Of a stretch of DNA of 35,456 nucleotides, positions 868-22,181 are shown piece by piece. A model generated the notes under the pieces. It had not been told where the DNA came from. It saw only the letters and a list, made by a program, of their open reading frames with translations, and did no database searches. Positions within the stretch are counted from its first letter, which is position 1, and every line of letters starts with the position of its first letter. Origin of the DNA: Bacteroidota bacterium (GTDB lineage: Bacteria > Bacteroidota > Bacteroidia > Chitinophagales > Chitinophagaceae); the NCBI GenBank assembly GCA_013288745.1, contig JABDBG010000021.1:1-35456 (forward strand), in the 5' to 3' direction. Made by a program: the position numbers and the translations under genes.

Positions 868-1980
868 TTAGTTTTTAATATCCTTCACACACCTGAATCC
901 TAAATTATTTCCGGCACTATTAGTTTCCCCCTTACCGCGACTGCCGGCTTTATATCGAATGCAATACTGATCACTGCAAATAAATGAACCACCACGTTGC
1001 ACATGTTTAACCGTATTTGGTTCATCAGGGTCATAGCTGTCTGTTGGTCCTTGTGGATTATACTCAGGACTATGCTGATAATAATCAGGACGGTACAGGT
1101 CATTGCACCATTCCCAAACATTGCCATCCATATCATACAACCCGAAAGGATTTGGCGGAAAAGATTTTACGGGTGCAACACCGTCATAACCATCTTCTGC
1201 AGTATTATGATCGGGGAAATTTCCCTGGTAAATATTGGCTACCCATTTTCCATTTGGTTTTAATTCGTTGCCCCAATAATATTTAGTTGGTTGCCGATTG
1301 CCACGTGCGGCAAATTCCCATTCGGCTTCTGTTGGTAACCTTTTGCCTGCCCAGGTTGCATAGGCTACTGCATCTTCGTAACAAACTTGCACAACAGGTT
1401 CATTGTCTTTTCCCTTGATAGAGCTTGTTGGGCCTTTTGGATGTTTCCAGTTAGCACCTTTTACATATATCCACCAAACAAAAGGATCATCTAATGAAAC
1501 CGCATGCGCAGGCGGAGTAAATACTGCAGAGCCTGCTACTAATTTATCTGCGGCAACTCCGGGATAATCAACAGGATTCAATGGGCGTTCTGCAACTGTG
1601 ATATAATGTGTAGCATTTACAAATTTTTCAAACTGAGCATTCGTGACCTCATGTTCATCCATTAAAAATGGTTTTACCGTTATACGATGAATGGGTTTGC
1701 TATCGTCAAAATCATTGCTTCCCATTTCAAAAGTGCCACCGGGTATTGCTACCATTTCTGCTGAACTACTATCGCCTGTTATTATACTGGAAGATGTTCC
1801 TAACAATGCTACAGACCGAGAAGGCATCCTGCACACTGATTGACTTTTGCTACAAGCAGGGCATGAGGCCTTTTTCGCAATTGCGGTATCTGTTGTTGAG
1901 ACTGAAATTGTTGAATGCTGCTGATTGCAGGCAGCATTCAACAACATAAGACATATCGATATACTTATTATCTTCTTCAC
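868..1980 (-). CDS. Formylglycine-generating enzyme (SUMF1-like) with N-terminal export/lipoprotein-like signal
   Basis: MVAIPGGTFEMGS, RLPTEAEWEFAARG, GNVWEWCND, and GGSFICSDQYCIRYK...NLGFRC, with the C-x4-C active-site pair as in SUMF1. N-terminus MKKIISISICLMLLNAAC. Confidence 0.88.
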   Translation of the reverse strand: MKKIISISICLMLLNAACNQQHSTISVSTTDTAIAKKASCPACSKSQSVCRMPSRSVALLGTSSSIITGDSSSAEMVAIPGGTFEMGSNDFDDSKPIHRITVKPFLMDEHEVTNAQFEKFVNATHYITVAERPLNPVDYPGVAADKLVAGSAVFTPPAHAVSLDDPFVWWIYVKGANWKHPKGPTSSIKGKDNEPVVQVCYEDAVAYATWAGKRLPTEAEWEFAARGNRQPTKYYWGNELKPNGKWVANIYQGNFPDHNTAEDGYDGVAPVKSFPPNPFGLYDMDGNVWEWCNDLYRPDYYQHSPEYNPQGPTDSYDPDEPNTVKHVQRGGSFICSDQYCIRYKAGSRGKGETNSAGNNLGFRCVKDIKN

Positions 1981-1982
1981 AC

Positions 1983-2684
1983 TTATTTTGCTTTTGCTAT
2001 TTCAGTAGTGATATCATATTTATTAAAAGTTAATCCTGATCTTTTCCAAACTATCTGCCCGTCTTTATATAAAAGGATAGTTGGTACTGATGGTACTTCA
2101 CCTAACTGAGCTACTAATTGCGGATTATTATATAATTCCAGTTGAACTACTTTGTAAGAGCCGTCGTTTTGTAAAGAGTCAACGATCACTTTTGCCTTTG
2201 CGCATAAGCCACAATATTTTGTTCCTATTTCAACTAATACAATTTTATTATCTGTAAGTGTTTTGTTGTAATCAGCAACTGAAAGGTTATTTTTTACTGA
2301 TGTATAATATGCATTGCCACTTCCTATCCAGGCTGCAATGCCTCCTTTTAATTCATACACTTCTTTATATCCGTTTGTATGAAGTTCAGCAGCTAATATA
2401 TCCGGACGGCTATTTTGTATGGCATAAATAAATACAGGTTTTGTTTTATCAAAGCTTTTTATCGCATCTAAATGATTGTCCTCTTTCAGGTTCACATAGG
2501 TTGCGCCGTTGATATGGTTGATCGTGAATTCTTCAGGAGTTCTTACATCAACTATTTGTGGCGCTTGTTGCCTGTTTATTTTTGCTGCAAAAGAATCTAC
2601 AGAAATTAGATCGTGATTTACTTGCGCAAAAATCGCTGTTATACTTAGAAAGCTAACGGCTGTTAAAATGAATACTTTTTTCAT
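1983..2684 (-). CDS. Exported rhodanese-like plus thioredoxin-like fusion
   Basis: Signal peptide; rhodanese-type IVDVRTPEEFTINHINGATYVNL; thioredoxin-type CGLC and VPSVPTILLYKDG. Confidence 0.85.
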   Translation of the reverse strand: MKKVFILTAVSFLSITAIFAQVNHDLISVDSFAAKINRQQAPQIVDVRTPEEFTINHINGATYVNLKEDNHLDAIKSFDKTKPVFIYAIQNSRPDILAAELHTNGYKEVYELKGGIAAWIGSGNAYYTSVKNNLSVADYNKTLTDNKIVLVEIGTKYCGLCAKAKVIVDSLQNDGSYKVVQLELYNNPQLVAQLGEVPSVPTILLYKDGQIVWKRSGLTFNKYDITTEIAKAK

Positions 2685-2701
2685 GTTTGATATGTTTTTA
2701 A

Positions 2702-3790
2702 TTATGCTATTGAAAATTCTTCTTCTTTTATTTTTTGATGGACAACTTCGTGTTCCTGGATATCATCGCCAACTCTTGGTCCGTGTTTAGATAACTCACT
2801 TCCTTCAACTTTGGATTTGAAAATTGGCCATAGGAATTGTGCATACCATTCTTCTTGTTTATAAAAAGCAATACCGTAACCTTTAGGGAACTTACGAGTG
2901 ATAATACCTGTTCCAAAAATGATATCCCACAAAAAGAACATGTTGCCAAAATTGCCTTTGTAATAACCAACACCGTCATCAGATGAATCTGCGTGATGCG
3001 CGTGGTGCGTAGCAGGGGTGGAGATCAATCTTTCTAAAACCCACGCAACAGGATGTAATACTTTGTATTTATATAAAGGTTTATCCCATGCGATGCTTGA
3101 ATGCGCTGCTAATGTGATGATAGATTTAATTACTGTAACAAATAATGCAGCAGGTCCTAAACCTAAATAAACCAATGCTGCCACTAAATAAATTTGTGAA
3201 AAGAAAACAGTATATAAAAAGTTCTGGCGACTAGCCATTGCCATGCCCATATAAGGTGCAGAATGATGCGTACGATGGAAGCGCCATAGTAAAGGTAATT
3301 GATGGTGCAAACGATGGTACCAATATTGAGTAAGGTCATCTGCTACGGCAATTAAAAAAACGCCGCCCCAAAATGGAACCCATGAAAATACATTATCCAA
3401 ATGTGGTAATGCGAATGGTAATAGTTTTAAAGCAAAGAATGCAGTGACAGGCGCTAATAAAACCTTAGGTGCTACAAAGCAAACAAGATCAACGATGCGT
3501 TCGTGCTTTGTCCATTTGTTGTCGTACAATCCTAATCCGAATTCAGCGATGCCTAATACGATCGCGATAGCGAAAAATCCCCATGAACGTAAATGTGTGA
3601 ACACCGGCTGAACAAAATTAAAAATACGCGGTGTTTTAATTACGAATGGCGTGTGCGTGTTATTGATCCATGGTGTTTCTCCTGTATGGTGAAACCATAG
3701 TACTAATGCCAGTACCGGCAATGCGTAAATAAAAAGACTGATAACAATATCTCTTGTTATTCTTTGTGGTGTGGTGTTAGTGAGTGCCAT
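2702..3790 (-). CDS. Sterol desaturase / fatty acid hydroxylase superfamily membrane protein
   Basis: Histidine boxes HRLHH, HRTHH and HHAHH; multiple TM segments. Confidence 0.85.
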   Translation of the reverse strand: MALTNTTPQRITRDIVISLFIYALPVLALVLWFHHTGETPWINNTHTPFVIKTPRIFNFVQPVFTHLRSWGFFAIAIVLGIAEFGLGLYDNKWTKHERIVDLVCFVAPKVLLAPVTAFFALKLLPFALPHLDNVFSWVPFWGGVFLIAVADDLTQYWYHRLHHQLPLLWRFHRTHHSAPYMGMAMASRQNFLYTVFFSQIYLVAALVYLGLGPAALFVTVIKSIITLAAHSSIAWDKPLYKYKVLHPVAWVLERLISTPATHHAHHADSSDDGVGYYKGNFGNMFFLWDIIFGTGIITRKFPKGYGIAFYKQEEWYAQFLWPIFKSKVEGSELSKHGPRVGDDIQEHEVVHQKIKEEEFSIA

Positions 3791-4014: not shown

Positions 4015-5865
4015 TTATTTTATTGGCGCTTGTATATTGTTTCCGTTTGGATGATGTATTTTTTTATTGTTTACATCATACCAATCGATCAGCGGATATA
4101 AATGATTGGTGGTAGCTTGTTCATCAAATACTTTTTTTAACTCAGCTAATTTTTCAGGGTATTTTTTTGCAAGATCATTTCTCTCATTAAAATCTTCGTC
4201 AATGTTGTATAATTTCCAAACATCGTCATCGAAGCTCTTATCAGCAATGGGTGCTCCCTGAGAAAAATCATAGTCAACATTATCCGGACGGTGAGGAGAT
4301 TCTGCTTTCCATCCATTGGAATAAATAGAACGATTGCCAAAAATATAATAGTACTGTATTGCATGCCTTGATTTCGCGTTAGCGCTATCAATAGAATAGG
4401 CTAGTGATGTTCCTTCAATACTATCTTGTTTAACATCTCTGATGTATTCAGGTTTTTGAATTCCGGTTAATTCTAACGTCGTTGGCAAAATGTCGATTAC
4501 ATGTCCGTATTGATTACGGATACCTCTTTGTTTAATGCCTTTCGGATAAAAAATGATCAAAGGGTTATGCGTACCACCTTCTGCGTCAGCATTTGTTTTC
4601 CATTCTTTAAATGGCGTATTAGCTGCCTGTGCCCAGCCTAATGGATAATTAGTTTGAGCATTAGGTGTACCAATAGAATCAATATCAGCCAGATTTACTT
4701 TTAAATAATCTGCTTCAGATGTAGTTCTTGCAGGGTTTGTTTTAGGTTCTATTGTTCCTTCCTGCGTACCTTCTTTGCTTGCACCATTGTCACCGATTAT
4801 TACATAAACGATCGTATTGTCCAATAAATTATTTTCTCTCAGGTAATTGATTACTCTGCCAATTTGATAATCGGTGTAAGAAAAGTAACCTGCATATACT
4901 TCCATGAATCTTTCAAATAATTTTTTCTGGTCTGCTGTTAATGAATTCCAAGCTGGTACACGAGGATTGCGAGGAGGTAATTGTGCGTTTGCAGGAACGA
5001 CGCCTAGTCTTTTCTGATTAGCTAATACTTGTTCACGAAATACATCCCATCCCTGATCAAATTTTCCTTTGTATTGATCACTCCAATATTTATCTACCTG
5101 GTGAGGTGCGTGAGTGGCGCCCGGTGCATAATATAAAAAGAAAGGCTTGTTGGGTGCAACTTTTTCCTGGCGTGATAAATAAGCAATTGCTTTATCAGTG
5201 ATCTGCTCATTTAAATGTCTTCCATCAGGAGTAACATGCGCCTGGTCTTCTACAAGATCAGGTTTGTATTGATCGGTTGCAGAACCGAGAAACCCAAAAA
5301 AATGATCAAAGCCTTTTTGTGTTGGCCAGTGATCGAAAGGTCCGGCATCTGTTGCTTCTTCATCGGGCGTTAAGCCGTATTTACCTACAGCAAAAGTGTT
5401 GTATCCATTGGCTCTTAATATTTCAGCCAATGTTCCATCGCTAGAAGGTATTCTTCCATCCCATCCAGGAAATCCTGCGGATAAAGCTATATGAGAAAAC
5501 CCGCTTTCATGCACAAAAGCACTATTACGGCCTGTTAATAAAGCAGAGCGTGTAGGCGCACAAATTGCGCAGGTGTGAAAGTTCGTATAGCGGAGACCGT
5601 TATTGGCTAAACTATCAAGTGTAGGCGTATGTATCAATCCGCCAAAAGCGCTTGATGCACCAAATCCTACATCATCTAGTATGATCAATAGAACATTAGG
5701 TGCTCCTGTGGGAGCTTTAACAACGGGTGCCCACCATTCTTTTGAATCGCCTAATGTTTTACCGACAGTTCCCTGATATATTTGTTGGTCCTGCGCATAA
5801 GAATGTTGTGTCGACAAGCTACCTATCAATATTGCGATGGAAGCAAGTATGTTTTTCTTATTCAT
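4015..5865 (-). CDS. Cys-type arylsulfatase, exported
   Basis: Signal peptide; sulfatase signature CAPTRSALLTGRN (C-x-P-x-R); NVLLIILDDVGFG; GDNGAS. Confidence 0.93.
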   Translation of the reverse strand: MNKKNILASIAILIGSLSTQHSYAQDQQIYQGTVGKTLGDSKEWWAPVVKAPTGAPNVLLIILDDVGFGASSAFGGLIHTPTLDSLANNGLRYTNFHTCAICAPTRSALLTGRNSAFVHESGFSHIALSAGFPGWDGRIPSSDGTLAEILRANGYNTFAVGKYGLTPDEEATDAGPFDHWPTQKGFDHFFGFLGSATDQYKPDLVEDQAHVTPDGRHLNEQITDKAIAYLSRQEKVAPNKPFFLYYAPGATHAPHQVDKYWSDQYKGKFDQGWDVFREQVLANQKRLGVVPANAQLPPRNPRVPAWNSLTADQKKLFERFMEVYAGYFSYTDYQIGRVINYLRENNLLDNTIVYVIIGDNGASKEGTQEGTIEPKTNPARTTSEADYLKVNLADIDSIGTPNAQTNYPLGWAQAANTPFKEWKTNADAEGGTHNPLIIFYPKGIKQRGIRNQYGHVIDILPTTLELTGIQKPEYIRDVKQDSIEGTSLAYSIDSANAKSRHAIQYYYIFGNRSIYSNGWKAESPHRPDNVDYDFSQGAPIADKSFDDDVWKLYNIDEDFNERNDLAKKYPEKLAELKKVFDEQATTNHLYPLIDWYDVNNKKIHHPNGNNIQAPIK

Positions 5866-5913: not shown

Positions 5914-7503
5914 TTACCATCCGGGGTTTTGGTAAAAGTTTGGATTTTGTCCTGCGTAGAGATCAATTTCTGTTTGTGGTATTGGGAACAATGTATCTTT
6001 CAATGTTGCAGCAGCTTTAGGATTGTTAAGCATGCCATGAACCGCATTCAGATAATATTGCCCTGCCGGTAAACCATCTTGTCCTGATCTTCTTACCAGA
6101 TCAAACCAGCGTTGCGATTCTTGTATGAACTCTTTTCTTCTTTCTAAATAAACAGAATCACGAAAATCTGCCTGGTTCAAACCCGGTGTGAGATCGTGTG
6201 TATGATCAGCATAAGTTCCACCACTGCTGTATACACCATAAGCTCTTGCTCTTACGATATTGATAGCAGTATATGCATCAGCCGTAGGACCCGCATTTAA
6301 TTCATTTAAGGTCTCAGCTTGTAAAAGCAAAATTTCTGCATAACGGATAATAGGAAAATTAACGCCGCTTAATGTTTGTGATGTGATAGGCGATACGGAA
6401 GAGTCAATGTATTTAGCGAAATTGAAGTAGGGCCATTTTACTGTTTTAGTGCCATTCTTTAAAGAGTCGAAAAACGTAACATTTCTTCTTTGATCTGCGA
6501 TAGCAAATAAATTAACGATCGTACTATCAGCCGGTATATCGCCCGTGTAGGTTGAAGTGGTAAATGTGCTGAAGTCGCCATTGCTTAAATTTTGCTGGCT
6601 GTTAACTGCACCTCCATTGTATTTGAATTGCGCAGAGAAAATATGTTCAATGCCATTTTTATAAGGCGTTTGAAAAATATGAGAGAACAAAGGGAATAGG
6701 TCATAGCCATAAGTACCGGTTGCTCCTGTGACAGTTCCCGCAGTTAGTGTTTTTAATAATTGAGTTTCTGCATTCGTCCAATCGTGCCGGGTTGCATATA
6801 CTTTAGCTAACAATGCGTGTGCTGCTCCTGCTGTAACGCGGCCTATATCAGCAGGATCGGTAACAGGGGAGTATGTCCCGGGCAAATTGGTAGCATCGGT
6901 TAGATCTGAAATTATTTGTGCATACACAGAATCTTTTGGTGCGCGGCTAACCAATGCGTTAGCAGTGTTTACATCACCCGCATCATGCAATACTAAAGGA
7001 ACAGGACCGAATAAACGAACCAGATTAAAATAATATAGCGCTCTAATAAACTTAGCTTCTCTTATTAAATTGATCGCAGGATGTGTAATGTCAACAAATT
7101 GAGAAGACGGAATATTTGGAATATTATCTATTGCTACATTGGCCTTATCAATCCCCCAATACAACTGCGCATATATTTTGTGCACACGGTCATTTGAAGA
7201 AATATAAGTAGCTGTACCAAGTGCCCTTACGTCGGGGTTTGTATTCGACGGACTATACACCTGGTTATCGCTTGTATTGTCTATTATTAAATTCAGGTTG
7301 CGTCCGTAGATAGGGAAATCTGCATTGATATCTGTAGACAGTGTACTATAAGCCGCTGTTACTGCAGCCACAGCATCTGATTGCGTTTTGTAAAAAGTTG
7401 TTGACGCAATACTTGTCTTTGGATTTTCATTCAATTTGCTGCAGGATGCTAAAGAACTTCCTATCAATATAAATGCGGCAGTGGTTATTAATATATTTTT
7501 CAT
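5914..7503 (-). CDS. SusD/RagB-family outer-membrane lipoprotein
   Basis: Lipoprotein signal ending SSLASC; SusD features (IREAKFIRALYYFNLVRLFGPVPLV; RRKEFIQESQRWFDLVR; FPIPQTEIDLYAGQNPNFYQNPGW). Confidence 0.95.
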   Translation of the reverse strand: MKNILITTAAFILIGSSLASCSKLNENPKTSIASTTFYKTQSDAVAAVTAAYSTLSTDINADFPIYGRNLNLIIDNTSDNQVYSPSNTNPDVRALGTATYISSNDRVHKIYAQLYWGIDKANVAIDNIPNIPSSQFVDITHPAINLIREAKFIRALYYFNLVRLFGPVPLVLHDAGDVNTANALVSRAPKDSVYAQIISDLTDATNLPGTYSPVTDPADIGRVTAGAAHALLAKVYATRHDWTNAETQLLKTLTAGTVTGATGTYGYDLFPLFSHIFQTPYKNGIEHIFSAQFKYNGGAVNSQQNLSNGDFSTFTTSTYTGDIPADSTIVNLFAIADQRRNVTFFDSLKNGTKTVKWPYFNFAKYIDSSVSPITSQTLSGVNFPIIRYAEILLLQAETLNELNAGPTADAYTAINIVRARAYGVYSSGGTYADHTHDLTPGLNQADFRDSVYLERRKEFIQESQRWFDLVRRSGQDGLPAGQYYLNAVHGMLNNPKAAATLKDTLFPIPQTEIDLYAGQNPNFYQNPGW

Positions 7504-7522: not shown

Positions 7523-10500
7523 CTAAAAAGTAATATTTAGTCCTGCTAAGAATGTTTTGTAATGTGGATAGACTCCTGCATCAATTCCAGGTAACAGGTT
7601 ATTCTGATCATAGAAATTTGCTTCAGGATCTAATCCGGAATAATGCGTGATCGTTAATAGGTTTTGCGCAGAGATGTATAGCCTGATCTGCTTCGCAAGA
7701 ATTTTTGAAGCGATGTTTTTTGGAAAAGTGTAACCGAGTGTCACATTCTTTAACCTGATGTATGAACCATCTTCAACATAAGTATCCTGCACTTGAGCAA
7801 CGGGAGCATTTACCGCTTTAGGATACCTGCCGGTAGGATTATTAACAGAATCAAACCTGTCTAACAAGACTGCTGAAGCATTGGTGGTAGTTTTAGTTAT
7901 CTCTAATTGTTGTTGTTCAAGGTTAAATAACTTATTGCCAAATGATCCCTGAAAGAAAATTGACAGATCGAATCCTTTATAGGTGAAAGTATTCGTCATG
8001 CTTGCCGTAAACTTCGCTTGTGCATTCCCTAAATTGTGTTTATCATTTGGATCAACTTTTCCATCCCCGTTTGTATCAATATATTTTCTATCTCCTGTTT
8101 GTTGCGATACGCCTGCTAATTTCGGTGCCGGATGCGCCCCGTAAACATCAGCGGTAGTTAACAATCCATCTGTACTATAGCCCCAGAATGTGCCTATCGG
8201 TAGTCCAACCTTTAAAATTTCAGGAGATACCTGGCCTGTAGCAGCTACCGGTTGAAAAGATTGACTTGGGCCAAGACTTAATATTTTATTGGCATTAGTG
8301 GCGTAGATCAATGTTGTTTTCCAATCAAAATCTCCTGCTTTGATATTATCTGTATTCAAAGAAAGTTCCACACCTTTATTTTGTATGCTGCCGATATTTT
8401 CAGCGACAGAAGCATAGCCTGTTGATAAAGGAACAAGTCCGCCGGCACTTACAAATAAATTGGTTGTCTTTTTATAATAAGCATCTGCTGTTAAAATGAT
8501 ACGGTTGCTTAAGAATGAAACATCGATACCTCCATCATACTGCGTGGTTGTTTCCCATGTTAAATTTGGATTGGCCAATTGTATTTGCGAAAGTCCTTGG
8601 GCAATATTATTTCCAAAGAAATATGTGTAAGGCCCTCCGGCTAAAGCAGGCGAGGTATAAGAAGGAATGTTCGCGTTACCTGTTTGTCCTGCAGTAGCCC
8701 TAAGTTTTAAACTGTTGGCTACATTCGTAAATTTCTTAAAGAAATTCTCATCAGACATATTCCATGAAACACCAATGGAAGGGAAGAAGCCATATTTTTT
8801 ATCCGGACCTAAAACGGAGGCACCATCGTATCTGCCCGATACGCTAACATTATATTTATGTTCGAATGAGTAATTAATTCTTCCCAGCCAGGATTGAATA
8901 GTGTTTGGTGCTTCTGCTGATGAACCTACAACCGGTGAACCATAAGACAGGTTGTTGAATGAAAATAAGTTGGTTGGAAAATTCTGCGCGTTCGATACAA
9001 CTGATTCTACATTTTGTTGTTGAATGGTATAACCTGCCAGTAAGTCTACATAATGTTTCTCATTAAATATATGGCTATACGATAACGTGTTTTCATTTAA
9101 CCAGCTAACAGAATGGCTTACGCCAACAGACGCATACCCATTTACACCAGCACCTGTAGAAAGTCCCCCTGCACCGCCTGGTGATGCAGTAAAGTTTGGC
9201 GCATAATAATTTTGTTTAGCATTTAGGAAATCTGCGCCACCAGTAATTTTTAAAAGTAAATCCTTAGTTAGTTTGTATTCAGCAGAAAAATTTCCTAAGA
9301 AGCGTGTGAGAATAGTTCTGTTGATAGTTGCTGTAATATCCTGTAAGGGATTTGTAGTATATGGCTGTGTTGTATTATTGATCACTGAAAAGAAAGGATC
9401 AGCTGTAGTATAGTAAGTTCCGTTTGCATTTCTTATCGGATGTAAAGGGCTTACCGTTAATAAAGTTGTAAAAGCGTTCCCAGAATTTAAAGCATTGAAA
9501 GGCCCTGTTAATTTATCTTCGGTTGAACTGCTTCCAAAAATACTAGTGGATACTTTTAATTTATCTGTAGCATTTTTTTCATAGTTAACTCGACCTGAGT
9601 ATCTTTCAAAACCGGTATTTAATAATGTTCCCTGTTGATTAAAATAATTTCCTGAAATAGAATACCTTGATTTTTCATCACCACCATAAATGGTTAACTG
9701 GTGATTTTGTATCGGCGCATTTCTGATAGCAGCTTTTTGCCAGTCGGCCGTTTGCCCTGTTCCACCCAAAGAATCTATTTTAGCTTTTGTTGCAGGTCCC
9801 GATCCTGTTTGTAATGTAGGCGTGGCTTTATAAATATCATCGTACAATTTTGCCCATTGCGGGCCATTCATTAATGATAATGTTTTATCAACCTGTTGTG
9901 TACCGTAATAACCACCGTAAGAAATATTGTTGCTGCCCTTTGTTCCTCTTTTTGTTGTGATGATCACAACTCCGTTTGCGCCACGTGAACCGTAAATAGC
10001 TGTGGCGGCAGCATCTTTCAACACGTCGATCGATTCAATATCACTTGGGTTAATAGTAGCTAGTGCGTTTACAGTTACGCCCGGAGAAGAACCGGTATTA
10101 GCTGCGCTGTTATTATTGTAATAAATAAATCCATCAATAACATACAATGGATCATTACCAAAACTTAACGAGTTTCCGCCACGAATTCTTATACTCGATC
10201 CTGCACCCGGCTGACCGGAACTTTGCGTAACTGTAACACCCGATACGGCACCTTGTAATAAGTTATCGGCAGAAGTTACGGGACGACTTAAATTTTCTTT
10301 TGAGACAGATGATACAGAACCCGAAACATCTTTTCTTCTTTGAGTGCCATAGCCAACTACCACTACATCTGATAATTGATTGGGCGCATCTTTTAACCGC
10401 ACATCTACAAATCCGTTATTAGTGCTATCTACTGTTACCAATTGCGTTTGATAACCGATAAAGCTGATAAATAAAGTGATTGGTAATTTTTTATAAGTGG

Positions 10501-10717
10501 TTAATTGAAACCCTCCTTTATTATCGGTGATAGCTGTATTGGTAGAACCTTCAATATGTATGGTAGCGCCTGCAATTGAATTTTTTGTTTTAACATCTGT
10601 AACCGTACCTGTTATGGTAGTATTTTCTTGTGCTTTTGCAGATAAAAAGCCGATGGCGAGAAAGAAACCGGTAAAGGCAAAAAGTTTCGCCGTTTTGTAA
10701 GCATTGATTTTACTCAT
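7523..10717 (-). CDS. SusC/RagA-family TonB-dependent outer-membrane transporter
   Basis: Carboxypeptidase-like N-domain, plug motif VVVGYGTQRRKDVSGSVSSV, ATAIYGSRGANGVVIITTKRG, C-terminal beta-barrel ending in F. Confidence 0.97.
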   Translation of the reverse strand: MSKINAYKTAKLFAFTGFFLAIGFLSAKAQENTTITGTVTDVKTKNSIAGATIHIEGSTNTAITDNKGGFQLTTYKKLPITLFISFIGYQTQLVTVDSTNNGFVDVRLKDAPNQLSDVVVVGYGTQRRKDVSGSVSSVSKENLSRPVTSADNLLQGAVSGVTVTQSSGQPGAGSSIRIRGGNSLSFGNDPLYVIDGFIYYNNNSAANTGSSPGVTVNALATINPSDIESIDVLKDAAATAIYGSRGANGVVIITTKRGTKGSNNISYGGYYGTQQVDKTLSLMNGPQWAKLYDDIYKATPTLQTGSGPATKAKIDSLGGTGQTADWQKAAIRNAPIQNHQLTIYGGDEKSRYSISGNYFNQQGTLLNTGFERYSGRVNYEKNATDKLKVSTSIFGSSSTEDKLTGPFNALNSGNAFTTLLTVSPLHPIRNANGTYYTTADPFFSVINNTTQPYTTNPLQDITATINRTILTRFLGNFSAEYKLTKDLLLKITGGADFLNAKQNYYAPNFTASPGGAGGLSTGAGVNGYASVGVSHSVSWLNENTLSYSHIFNEKHYVDLLAGYTIQQQNVESVVSNAQNFPTNLFSFNNLSYGSPVVGSSAEAPNTIQSWLGRINYSFEHKYNVSVSGRYDGASVLGPDKKYGFFPSIGVSWNMSDENFFKKFTNVANSLKLRATAGQTGNANIPSYTSPALAGGPYTYFFGNNIAQGLSQIQLANPNLTWETTTQYDGGIDVSFLSNRIILTADAYYKKTTNLFVSAGGLVPLSTGYASVAENIGSIQNKGVELSLNTDNIKAGDFDWKTTLIYATNANKILSLGPSQSFQPVAATGQVSPEILKVGLPIGTFWGYSTDGLLTTADVYGAHPAPKLAGVSQQTGDRKYIDTNGDGKVDPNDKHNLGNAQAKFTASMTNTFTYKGFDLSIFFQGSFGNKLFNLEQQQLEITKTTTNASAVLLDRFDSVNNPTGRYPKAVNAPVAQVQDTYVEDGSYIRLKNVTLGYTFPKNIASKILAKQIRLYISAQNLLTITHYSGLDPEANFYDQNNLLPGIDAGVYPHYKTFLAGLNITF

Positions 10718-10807
10718 AGTTTGATTTAGTTTGTTAATTATCTAATCAGCCTATTGTGTAAAAAAATCTCAAAAAACGCTTAATGCTTTTCTCTTATATT
10801 TGCTTAC

Positions 10808-10908
10808 ACAATAAGGCCGACAGTAAGCGCTTAATGCACTTACTGTTTTCCCAAGCCTCTTTGTTACCGGCCAGAACTGCTCCAACAGTTTCTGGCCATT
10901 TTTTTATT
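10808..10908 (+). ncRNA. Candidate small RNA divergent from susC, or antisense to its leader
   Basis: TATATTTG (10795-10802) fits the Bacteroidota -7 element, though no good -33 was seen. Two hairpins follow, the second (GGCCAGAA...TTCTGGCC + T7) a + strand terminator. No + strand CDS lies upstream to need it. Confidence 0.4.
10869..10908 (+). terminator. Intrinsic terminator on the + strand
   Basis: GGCCAGAA-CTG...CAG-TTTCTGGCC stem followed by ATTTTTTTATTT. Confidence 0.7.
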
Positions 10909-11098
10909 TAGTTTTCATAAGTTATATGTTACGGGCCGGCACGATCGTTTGATAATAAACCATTCGTAATTATAAACCGATCATAAAGATCATAGGCTGT
11001 TGCAGCTTCGCCGCGAAAAGATTGTATTAGGTATAAGTGCATTTTAAGTAGAATAAAGTCAGAGAAAAAGAATAAAGAAGAACCTTGCTAATAAAGTA

Positions 11099-11182
11099 TT
11101 AGCAGCAACAACAGCAACATGGAAATGTAATTGCCTTTATGCAATTAAGTGCTGTGTAAGTATATCGTAAAGATGATAACAT
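11099..11182 (-). CDS. Candidate cysteine leader peptide: MLSSLRYTYTALNCIKAITFPCCCCCC*
   Basis: ATG at 11182-11180; six consecutive Cys codons (TGT TGC TGT TGT TGC TGC, + strand 11102-11119) directly before TAA (11101-11099). Located in the susC operon leader. Confidence 0.7.
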   Translation of the reverse strand: MLSSLRYTYTALNCIKAITFPCCCCCC

Positions 11183-11286: not shown

Positions 11287-11329
11287 CAAACGTAGTGTTA
11301 ATTTATTAGTCTACCAAAATTATAGACTA
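11287..11329 (-). promoter_or_regulatory. Promoter of susC operon with overlapping palindromic operator
   Basis: -7 TACGTTTG (11294-11287), N20, -33 TTTG (11318-11315). Operator TAGTCTA-CCAAAATTA-TAGACTA (11307-11329), perfect 7-bp arms. Confidence 0.65.
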
Positions 11330-11404: not shown

Positions 11405-12574
11405 TTAGCACTTATCTAACGCTTGCAAGATGTCGTTTAGTATGTCATCTACATATTCTAATCCAACAGAAATACGAATCAATCCCGGTGTTATATTAAC
11501 GGCAGTTCTTTCAGCATCTGTTAATTTAGCATGTGTGGTACTAGCCGGATGAGAAGCAATGCTTCTGCTGTCTCCTAAATTAGCAGTTAGCGTAAGCATT
11601 TCTAAGCTGTCTAAAAATTTTATTCCGCTTGCTAAACCGCCTTTTAATTCGAACGCAACTAATGCACCGCCATTTTTCATTTGTTTTTTTGCAATAACAT
11701 ATTGCGGATGGCTCGGTAAAAAAGGATATTTAGTAAAACTTATTTTTGAATGATTCTCTAAAGCTTTCGCGATATGAAACGCGTTGGAAGAATGGCGCTC
11801 CATACGCACATCCAATGTTTCTAAACTTCTGCTTAGTACCCATGCATTAAATGGCGACATTGCGGGCCCTGTGCTTCTGCAGAATAAATAAATATTATGG
11901 ATCAGTTCTTTTTTACCTACGATCACTCCACCTAATACTCTTCCTTGGCCGTCCATCCATTTGGTAGCAGAGTGTACAACCAGATCTGCTCCATATTGAA
12001 TCGGAGTTTGATTAACCGGAGTTGCAAAACAATTATCTACATTTAAAATAACATTGTGCTTTTTTGCAAGTTTGCCTGCAAATTCAAGATCAATTATATC
12101 CAGCGCCGGGTTAGTGGGCGTTTCCAGGTAGATCATTTTTGTATTAGGCCTGATTGCGGCTTCCCATTCTTCAGGCTTTGCAGCACTTACATAGGTCACT
12201 TCAATTCCATAATTAGGAAGGAATTTATTTAAGATAGTAACCGTACTGCCAAAAATAGAATTGCATGCAACAAGGTGATCGCCTTTTTTGAGTAATGCCA
12301 TGAATGATGCAAACACTGCACTCATGCCCGATGAGGTAGCGTATCCTGCTTCAGCACCTTCAAGTATTACAACCCTGTCTGTAAATTCTTTTACTGTAGG
12401 GTTACTAAAACGGCTATAAATATTTGCATCTGTTTCATCCGCAAAAGCCGCACGCATATCTTCCGCATTATCAAAACTGAAACTGCTGGTAAGAAATAAC
12501 GGAGAAGAATGTTCCATCTCGTTCGTTTGCTCCGTTCTTGCACGGATGGCTTTTGTAATTGGATGTTGTTCCAT
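11405..12574 (-). CDS. metZ: O-succinyl/O-acetylhomoserine sulfhydrylase (MetZ/MetB-type PLP enzyme)
   Basis: Cys/Met metabolism PLP family; lysine motif HSATKWMDGQGRVLGG; YSRFSNPT; N-terminus typical of MetZ. Confidence 0.85.
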   Translation of the reverse strand: MEQHPITKAIRARTEQTNEMEHSSPLFLTSSFSFDNAEDMRAAFADETDANIYSRFSNPTVKEFTDRVVILEGAEAGYATSSGMSAVFASFMALLKKGDHLVACNSIFGSTVTILNKFLPNYGIEVTYVSAAKPEEWEAAIRPNTKMIYLETPTNPALDIIDLEFAGKLAKKHNVILNVDNCFATPVNQTPIQYGADLVVHSATKWMDGQGRVLGGVIVGKKELIHNIYLFCRSTGPAMSPFNAWVLSRSLETLDVRMERHSSNAFHIAKALENHSKISFTKYPFLPSHPQYVIAKKQMKNGGALVAFELKGGLASGIKFLDSLEMLTLTANLGDSRSIASHPASTTHAKLTDAERTAVNITPGLIRISVGLEYVDDILNDILQALDKC

Positions 12575-21991: not shown

Positions 21992-22052
21992 CAGTCTAGT
22001 AATTTAGTAGAGTTTTAAAATAAAAAAAGTAATAATTGTTTTATGTAAAATC

Positions 22053-22181
22053 TTAAATGTCCCCATTGGGACAGCAACAGCTGTTGATAATTGCAACCAT
22101 TTGTCCTTTGTGCAAAGACAATATAGCAGTATGACTAATAGTAGCCTGTGCGTTGTTTGGTTTAATTAATTGTGATGCCAT
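22053..22181 (-). CDS. Candidate cysteine leader peptide: MASQLIKPNNAQATISHTAILSLHKGQMVAIINSCCCPNGDI*
   Basis: ATG at 22181-22179, open for 42 codons, stop 22055-22053; three consecutive Cys codons TGT TGC TGT. Sits between promoter and porin start. A downstream in-frame ATG (22100) would give MVAIINSCCCPNGDI. Confidence 0.65.
   Translation of the reverse strand: MASQLIKPNNAQATISHTAILSLHKGQMVAIINSCCCPNGDI

Follow-up and report, generated by a model that had tools for sequence, protein, structure and literature searches.

A candidate cysteine-sensing leader peptide upstream of a SusCD-sulfatase operon in Chitinophagaceae

The window, a stretch of 35,456 nucleotides from the genome of a soil/water bacterium of the Chitinophagaceae, carries on its minus strand a cluster of genes encoding a SusC/RagA TonB-dependent receptor, SusD, and a sulfatase, probably continued by genes for a fatty acid (FA)-hydroxylase family protein, a rhodanese-thioredoxin protein, and a formylglycine-generating enzyme (FGE)-domain protein (Table 1). 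The tandem susC-susD pair accompanied by a degradative enzyme identifies it as a SusCD polysaccharide utilization-type operon, and its sulfatase, SusCD, rhodanese, and sulfhydrylase neighbors fit a context of cysteine and sulfur metabolism. The susC-susD pair was present in all 12 of the orthologous regions that were read, and the sulfatase and FA-hydroxylase genes were present in nearly all of them. The upstream gene, which is similar to those encoding O-succinylhomoserine sulfhydrylase, has its own terminator, and the leader of susC therefore probably begins a transcription unit. The proposed promoter contains TACGTTTG, which we take to be a -7 box of the Bacteroidota TAnnTTTG type. A first-pass annotation of the sequence had placed this box and the susC start codon, and between them a minus-strand open reading frame (ORF) with six mixed TGT and TGC codons before its stop; box and start codon were both found, and the translation of the ORF was reproduced exactly. 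The stop codon, TAA at 11101-11099 (-), follows the sixth Cys codon immediately. The leader peptide had no match in NCBIfam or Pfam.

Table 1. Features of the SusCD-sulfatase locus (positions in the window)
Feature	Position	Strand	Basis or remark
FA-hydroxylase family, rhodanese-thioredoxin, and FGE-domain genes	868..3790	-	probable operon continuation
Sulfatase gene	4015..5865	-	PF00884
susD	5914..7503	-	PF07980/PF14322
susC (SusC/RagA TonB-dependent receptor)	7523..10717	-	TIGR04056
Hairpin H3 (long; approximate arms GGCCUUAUUGUGUAAGC and UUACACAAUAGGC)	10748..10818	-	fold; window only
Hairpin H2, CAGUAAGUGCAUUAAGCGCUUACUG	10821..10845	-	fold; type-B comparison
Hairpin H1, GGCCAGAAACUGUUGGAGCAGUUCUGGCC, A-run before it	10869..10897	-	equivalent hairpin with other stem sequence in type-B relatives
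CGCGGCGAAGCTGCAACAG, complementary to Cys-codon run, candidate switch partner	10997..11015	-	predicted duplex, -21 kcal/mol
8-bp hairpin TGCTAATA-CTT-TATTAGCA over last Cys codon and stop	11086..11104	-	sequence
Leader ORF, MLSSLRYTYTALNCIKAITFPCCCCCC	11099..11182	-	translation; between promoter and susC
Six-Cys codon run, TGT TGC TGT TGT TGC TGC	11102..11119	-	sequence, translation
5' leader hairpin GAACUAUACAA/UUGUAUAGUUC, 16-nt loop	11218..11255	-	11-bp stem; in whole-leader fold
Promoter -7 box, TACGTTTG	11287..11294	-	sequence; similar boxes at same place in other type-B leaders
Operator AGTCTATAATTTTGGTAGACTA, overlapping -33 TTGG	11307..11328	-	palindrome search
Upstream gene, O-succinylhomoserine sulfhydrylase-like	11405..12574	-	own terminator at 11372-11347

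The promoters of most orthologous leaders have in common a palindrome, AGTCTAC-N7-GTAGACT, and the copy in the window, AGTCTATAATTTTGGTAGACTA, is the top match in its genome to AKWCTAYN7GTAGACTA. This operator, which also occurs at other sulfur genes and at an Rrf2/CymR-like regulator gene, had been overlooked by the first-pass annotation. All four of the same-genus genomes tested have it 62 to 65 nt upstream of an Rrf2-family gene, a position from which it was absent in the other genera examined. One such gene (G000:C4:39785-40258; L052, L170), for which the distance from operator to start is 62 nt, adjoins a peroxiredoxin gene. The Rrf2 protein matches the superfamily model TIGR00738, and its top equivalog matches are to CymR and IscR, both below cutoff (for CymR, NCBIfam NF047409, 57.3 bits compared with a cutoff of 195). 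The placement of the operator suggests that this CymR-like protein regulates the SusCD-sulfatase operon.

Orthologues of susC were gathered without regard to their leaders (48 to 64% identity, compared with about 46% or less for paralogues in genomes of the family), and counts are based on the leaders of the 29 family orthologues with usable upstream sequence; the orthologues L086 and L087, near contig ends, were excluded. A run of at least three Cys codons near the stop was present in 26 of the 29, compared with 1.7% of dinucleotide shuffles per leader, although these leaders come from relatives that share descent and do not represent independent events. L084 and L085 have no Cys run, L094 has only scattered cysteines, and the leader ORF of L099 is without an ATG. 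Among 12 leaders of paralogous susC genes, a Cys run was found once, and in that case it lay within upstream coding sequence. The 26 ORFs use both codons (80 TGT and 32 TGC), so that the conservation of an ORF ending in Cys codons with synonymous changes, which the first-pass annotation had named as a check of its proposal, was borne out. In the window itself, 20,000 dinucleotide shuffles of its 600-nt leader never produced six Cys codons followed by a stop, and the source genome (72% complete) contained only two other matches to four TGY codons and a stop, both within coding genes and in other frames. Scanning for that pattern alone, in the genome or in 60 relatives, was rejected as a detector, as it returned mostly matches inside genes. 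Judged from these comparisons, the Cys-run ORF of the window is not due to chance.

A contig scan for the operator together with four Cys codons recovered 21 stretches. Three look like chance occurrences; the other 18 are leaders of the present type, with Chitinophagaceae (Ferruginibacter, Puia, Niabella, Flavitalea, and Deminuibacter) contributing nearly all of them. The combination of operator and Cys ORF also precedes a gene for a siroheme-type uroporphyrinogen methyltransferase (SUMT; L153 and L154), an FA-hydroxylase operon (L134 and L195), and PhyH-SDR genes (L124, L128, and L150), all named here from reading the sequences and not from profile searches. In two further families of the class, orthologues (L166 to L168) have the Cys-rich ends MMCCASTCICC, TSCCCMCFCC, and ICYMCFCC, each directly before the stop. 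One record titled Beijerinckiaceae (L126) encodes the same leader peptide as L104 of the Chitinophagaceae and is probably a misassigned contig. The window contains a second Cys ORF, MASQLIKPNNAQATISHTAILSLHKGQMVAIINSCCCPNGDI, at 22052-22180 (-), upstream of genes for a porin, a PstS-like ABC transporter, and siroheme-TauE proteins, with operators of the same type, one at 22216-22195 and a degenerate second at 22272-22251. In orthologues of this ORF the run dwindles (to the ends CCPSGT, YCPAGHLTD, and CLFGDYYGTK), and the hairpin TGTCCC-NNN-GGGACA is retained. Separately, an unlisted small membrane-protein ORF, MQLLDVKILTKKIIIGIVIFLVPLIILAGGLWFIQHHS, lies at 3939-3823 (-), between the sulfatase and FA-hydroxylase genes, with an operator at 3960-3939 overlapping its start; L134 and L195 have small ORFs resembling it in the corresponding position.

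Outside the Cys run, the leader peptides could be aligned among close relatives only, and even in the close pairs L100/L101, L034/L115, and L106/L107 the codon run is kept while the remaining peptide varies. The run could be retained for the sake of the peptide itself, either as a metal- or thiol-binding product or as a nascent chain sensed via its thiols (redox or persulfide), in which case tRNA supply would not be the signal. Cysteine is the sole conserved residue and stands at the C terminus, directly before the stop in all 26 Cys-run leaders, and the promoter-proximal place of the ORF would permit its independent expression. However, the peptides range from 12 to 60 amino acids with otherwise unconstrained sequence and from one to six terminal cysteines, and the ORF is always found in cis before the same operon, within a structured leader RNA. 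With so little constraint on length, sequence, and number of cysteines, a function of the peptide as such is unlikely.

The reading frame bears on a further possibility, that the (TGY)n run acts as untranslated RNA or DNA by pairing with downstream GCAACAG or CAGCAG segments or by binding a protein. Complementarity between the run and downstream RNA was in weak excess over 27 leaders (Stouffer z of -2.7), and the duplex with CGCGGCGAAGCTGCAACAG in the window had a shuffle p of 0.04; with an excess this weak, such pairing was set aside as a universal switch. An untranslated repeat is contradicted by the frame evidence and is very improbable: a stop within two codons after the run was found for 25 of the 26 in the Cys frame, compared with 0 and 3 in the two alternative frames, an in-frame ATG is present in 25 of the 26, the run is interrupted in frame (CCCSC and CCCCMCC), and the stop codons are interchangeable (9 TAA, 11 TGA, and 6 TAG). 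Least probable of all is regulation by the Rrf2/CymR-like repressor alone with the Cys ORF as a passive relic. The operator is indeed conserved, both at most of the leaders and, within the genus, ahead of the Rrf2 gene, but an ORF without a function would have lost its Cys run along with the rest of a freely drifting peptide, and 26 of 29 leaders have kept it. The comparisons thus favor a leader ORF that is read by the ribosome for its Cys codons.

The RNA around the ORF is strongly structured in the window, with a fold z score relative to shuffles of -5.5 for the whole leader and of -7.1 for the H1-H3 region (10905-10740). The leader of the window and those of most other relatives, referred to here as type B, have an A-run, the strong hairpin H1, and a second hairpin, the stems of which vary between relatives with pairing retained. 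Alignment with MAFFT ignored structure, and the hairpins were instead folded individually. These conserved downstream structures were missing from the first-pass annotation, which had pointed to the 8-bp hairpin over the stop codon. That hairpin is present in the window, but its sequence is not common to other leaders, and hairpins better than -3 kcal/mol that pair the stop codon were predicted in only 11 of the 26; it was rejected as the switch because it is not conserved. The earlier proposal of ribosome-mediated attenuation is not supported in its classical form with an intrinsic terminator: searches of the interval from the leader stop to susC found none in the window and none in nearly all relatives. 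No Rfam family matched the leader RNAs above its gathering score. Among other observations on these leaders, a near-invariant loop, GUAACGSCAAUCAC, is carried on varying stems shortly upstream of susC in nine loci (L092, L096, L103, L104, L117, L119, L120, L129, and L166). A tiny ORF, MKTK, lies directly before H1 in the window at 10918-10904 (-), and ORFs preceding H1 in L167 to L169 encode MKKMHNHCCK, MKTMQTCCFK, and MKRSCC; a second Cys-codon site by H1 may exist outside the family.

A different architecture, type A, is found in another set of relatives. The type-A transcript is predicted to begin with a hairpin bearing a 7-nt loop (AACCACC, UACCACC, or AAUCGCC), and a downstream hairpin, 69 to 175 nt past the leader stop, has a loop with the exactly complementary sequence (GGUGGUU, GGUGGUA, or GGCGAUU). 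An exact complementary 7-mer was found in 15 of 17 type-A loci, compared with 0.24 expected, on stems that differ in sequence, and the loops form the compensatory pairs AACCACC/GGUGGUU, UACCACC/GGUGGUA, and AAUCGCC/GGCGAUU. In addition, a 5-nt copy of the complement lies within the ORF in 15 of the 17 loci (0.55 expected), 31 to 40 nt before the Cys run, most often at 37 or 40, and invariably in the same frame. One loop with two partners is the layout that would be expected if a ribosome positioned at the Cys codons operated a switch. This loop-loop arrangement does not occur in the leader of the window. The paired, covarying 7-nt loops that flank the Cys ORF may represent a new RNA motif, in most cases with the complement present once more inside the ORF; the loop-pair loci are L034, L035, L040, L081, L082, L088, L089, L091, L098, L108, L116, L138, L142, L144, and L195.

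Taken together, the comparative sequence data make it very likely that the ORF in the window serves as a leader peptide sensing cysteine, by way of Cys-tRNA, for a sulfate ester-scavenging operon, probably alongside a repressor of the cysteine regulon. Conservation of the leader thus supports the central proposal of the first-pass annotation, which had linked a Cys-codon leader peptide to sulfate ester-scavenging genes. The sensing ORF is well supported, while the RNA output step and the direction of the response are what we infer. When Cys-tRNA is scarce, the ribosome would stall at the Cys codons, and different leader RNA structures would form. In type-A relatives, the loop of the 5' hairpin would pair with either the ORF or the downstream hairpin loop; in the window, the structures affected would be H1 to H3 and the segment complementary to the Cys run. 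The altered structure would allow the sulfate ester uptake operon to be expressed, and with plentiful cysteine the ribosome would complete the ORF and expression would fall. Expression at low cysteine is proposed by analogy with the logic of known leader peptides. Given that there is no intrinsic terminator, the output is more likely to be Rho-dependent termination, RNA stability, or translation of susC than classical attenuation. The CymR-like Rrf2 protein on the promoter palindrome would probably add a second, transcriptional layer. It is quite possible, though short of probable, that these leaders form a new class of terminator-less, ribosome-read leaders in Bacteroidota, in which the poly-Cys ORF is kept and the RNA output module has been exchanged at least once, one form being a long-range loop-loop switch whose 5' loop pairs with either the site in the ORF or the loop downstream of it, coupled to a cysteine regulon repressor at the same promoter.

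Several known systems resemble parts of this arrangement. In the CymR/Rrf2 cysteine regulon of Firmicutes, a palindromic site precedes sulfur genes and the regulator's own gene. The Chitinophagaceae likewise have an Rrf2-family gene and a palindrome before sulfur genes and before that gene, but the protein scores below the CymR cutoff, the operator is another one, and it is combined with a leader peptide. Some type-A leaders have a GGGUGGUA-like loop that is reminiscent of the T-box sequence, whereas there was no Rfam match, and the type-A loop pairs with the loop of the 5' hairpin, the two changing together. The attenuators of trp, his, and other operons place their control codons late in a short leader ORF, and structured RNA follows. 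Leader peptide attenuation has been described before amino acid biosynthesis operons in Flavobacterium psychrophilum (PMC9723704). The leaders described here share with the trp, his, and F. psychrophilum attenuators the late position of the control codons in a short ORF and the structured RNA that follows; they differ in having no intrinsic terminator that could be found, in preceding an operon for nutrient uptake and not for biosynthesis, and in their use of Cys codons.

The closest parallel is with the polycysteine upstream ORFs of mycobacteria, which have been reported to be cysteine-responsive attenuators (Canestrari et al. 2020, doi 10.1111/mmi.14498, as cited in PMC13236596 and PMC9094748). 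As those citing papers present them, they have in common with the window ORF a short reading frame with consecutive Cys codons upstream of genes and a proposed response to cysteine. The Chitinophagaceae leaders belong to another phylum, have a SusCD-sulfatase operon as their target, and add an Rrf2-type operator and RNA modules of their own; the mycobacterial ORF is reported to be leaderless, whereas the window ORF is not, lying about 100 nt, including a hairpin, downstream of the predicted -7 box and hence behind a long structured 5' leader. A search of the open-access literature turned up no description of Cys leaders from Bacteroidota.

Cysteine-sensing leader peptides are known from mycobacteria, and the sequence comparisons presented here provide evidence that a second phylum uses the same logic. 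Here the Cys leader would control nutrient uptake through a SusCD-sulfatase operon and not amino acid synthesis, providing a concrete link between the need for sulfur and the use of sulfated organic matter. The leaders, roughly 40 in number and of at least two RNA architectures, offer material for the study of ribosome-controlled regulation that operates without intrinsic terminators.
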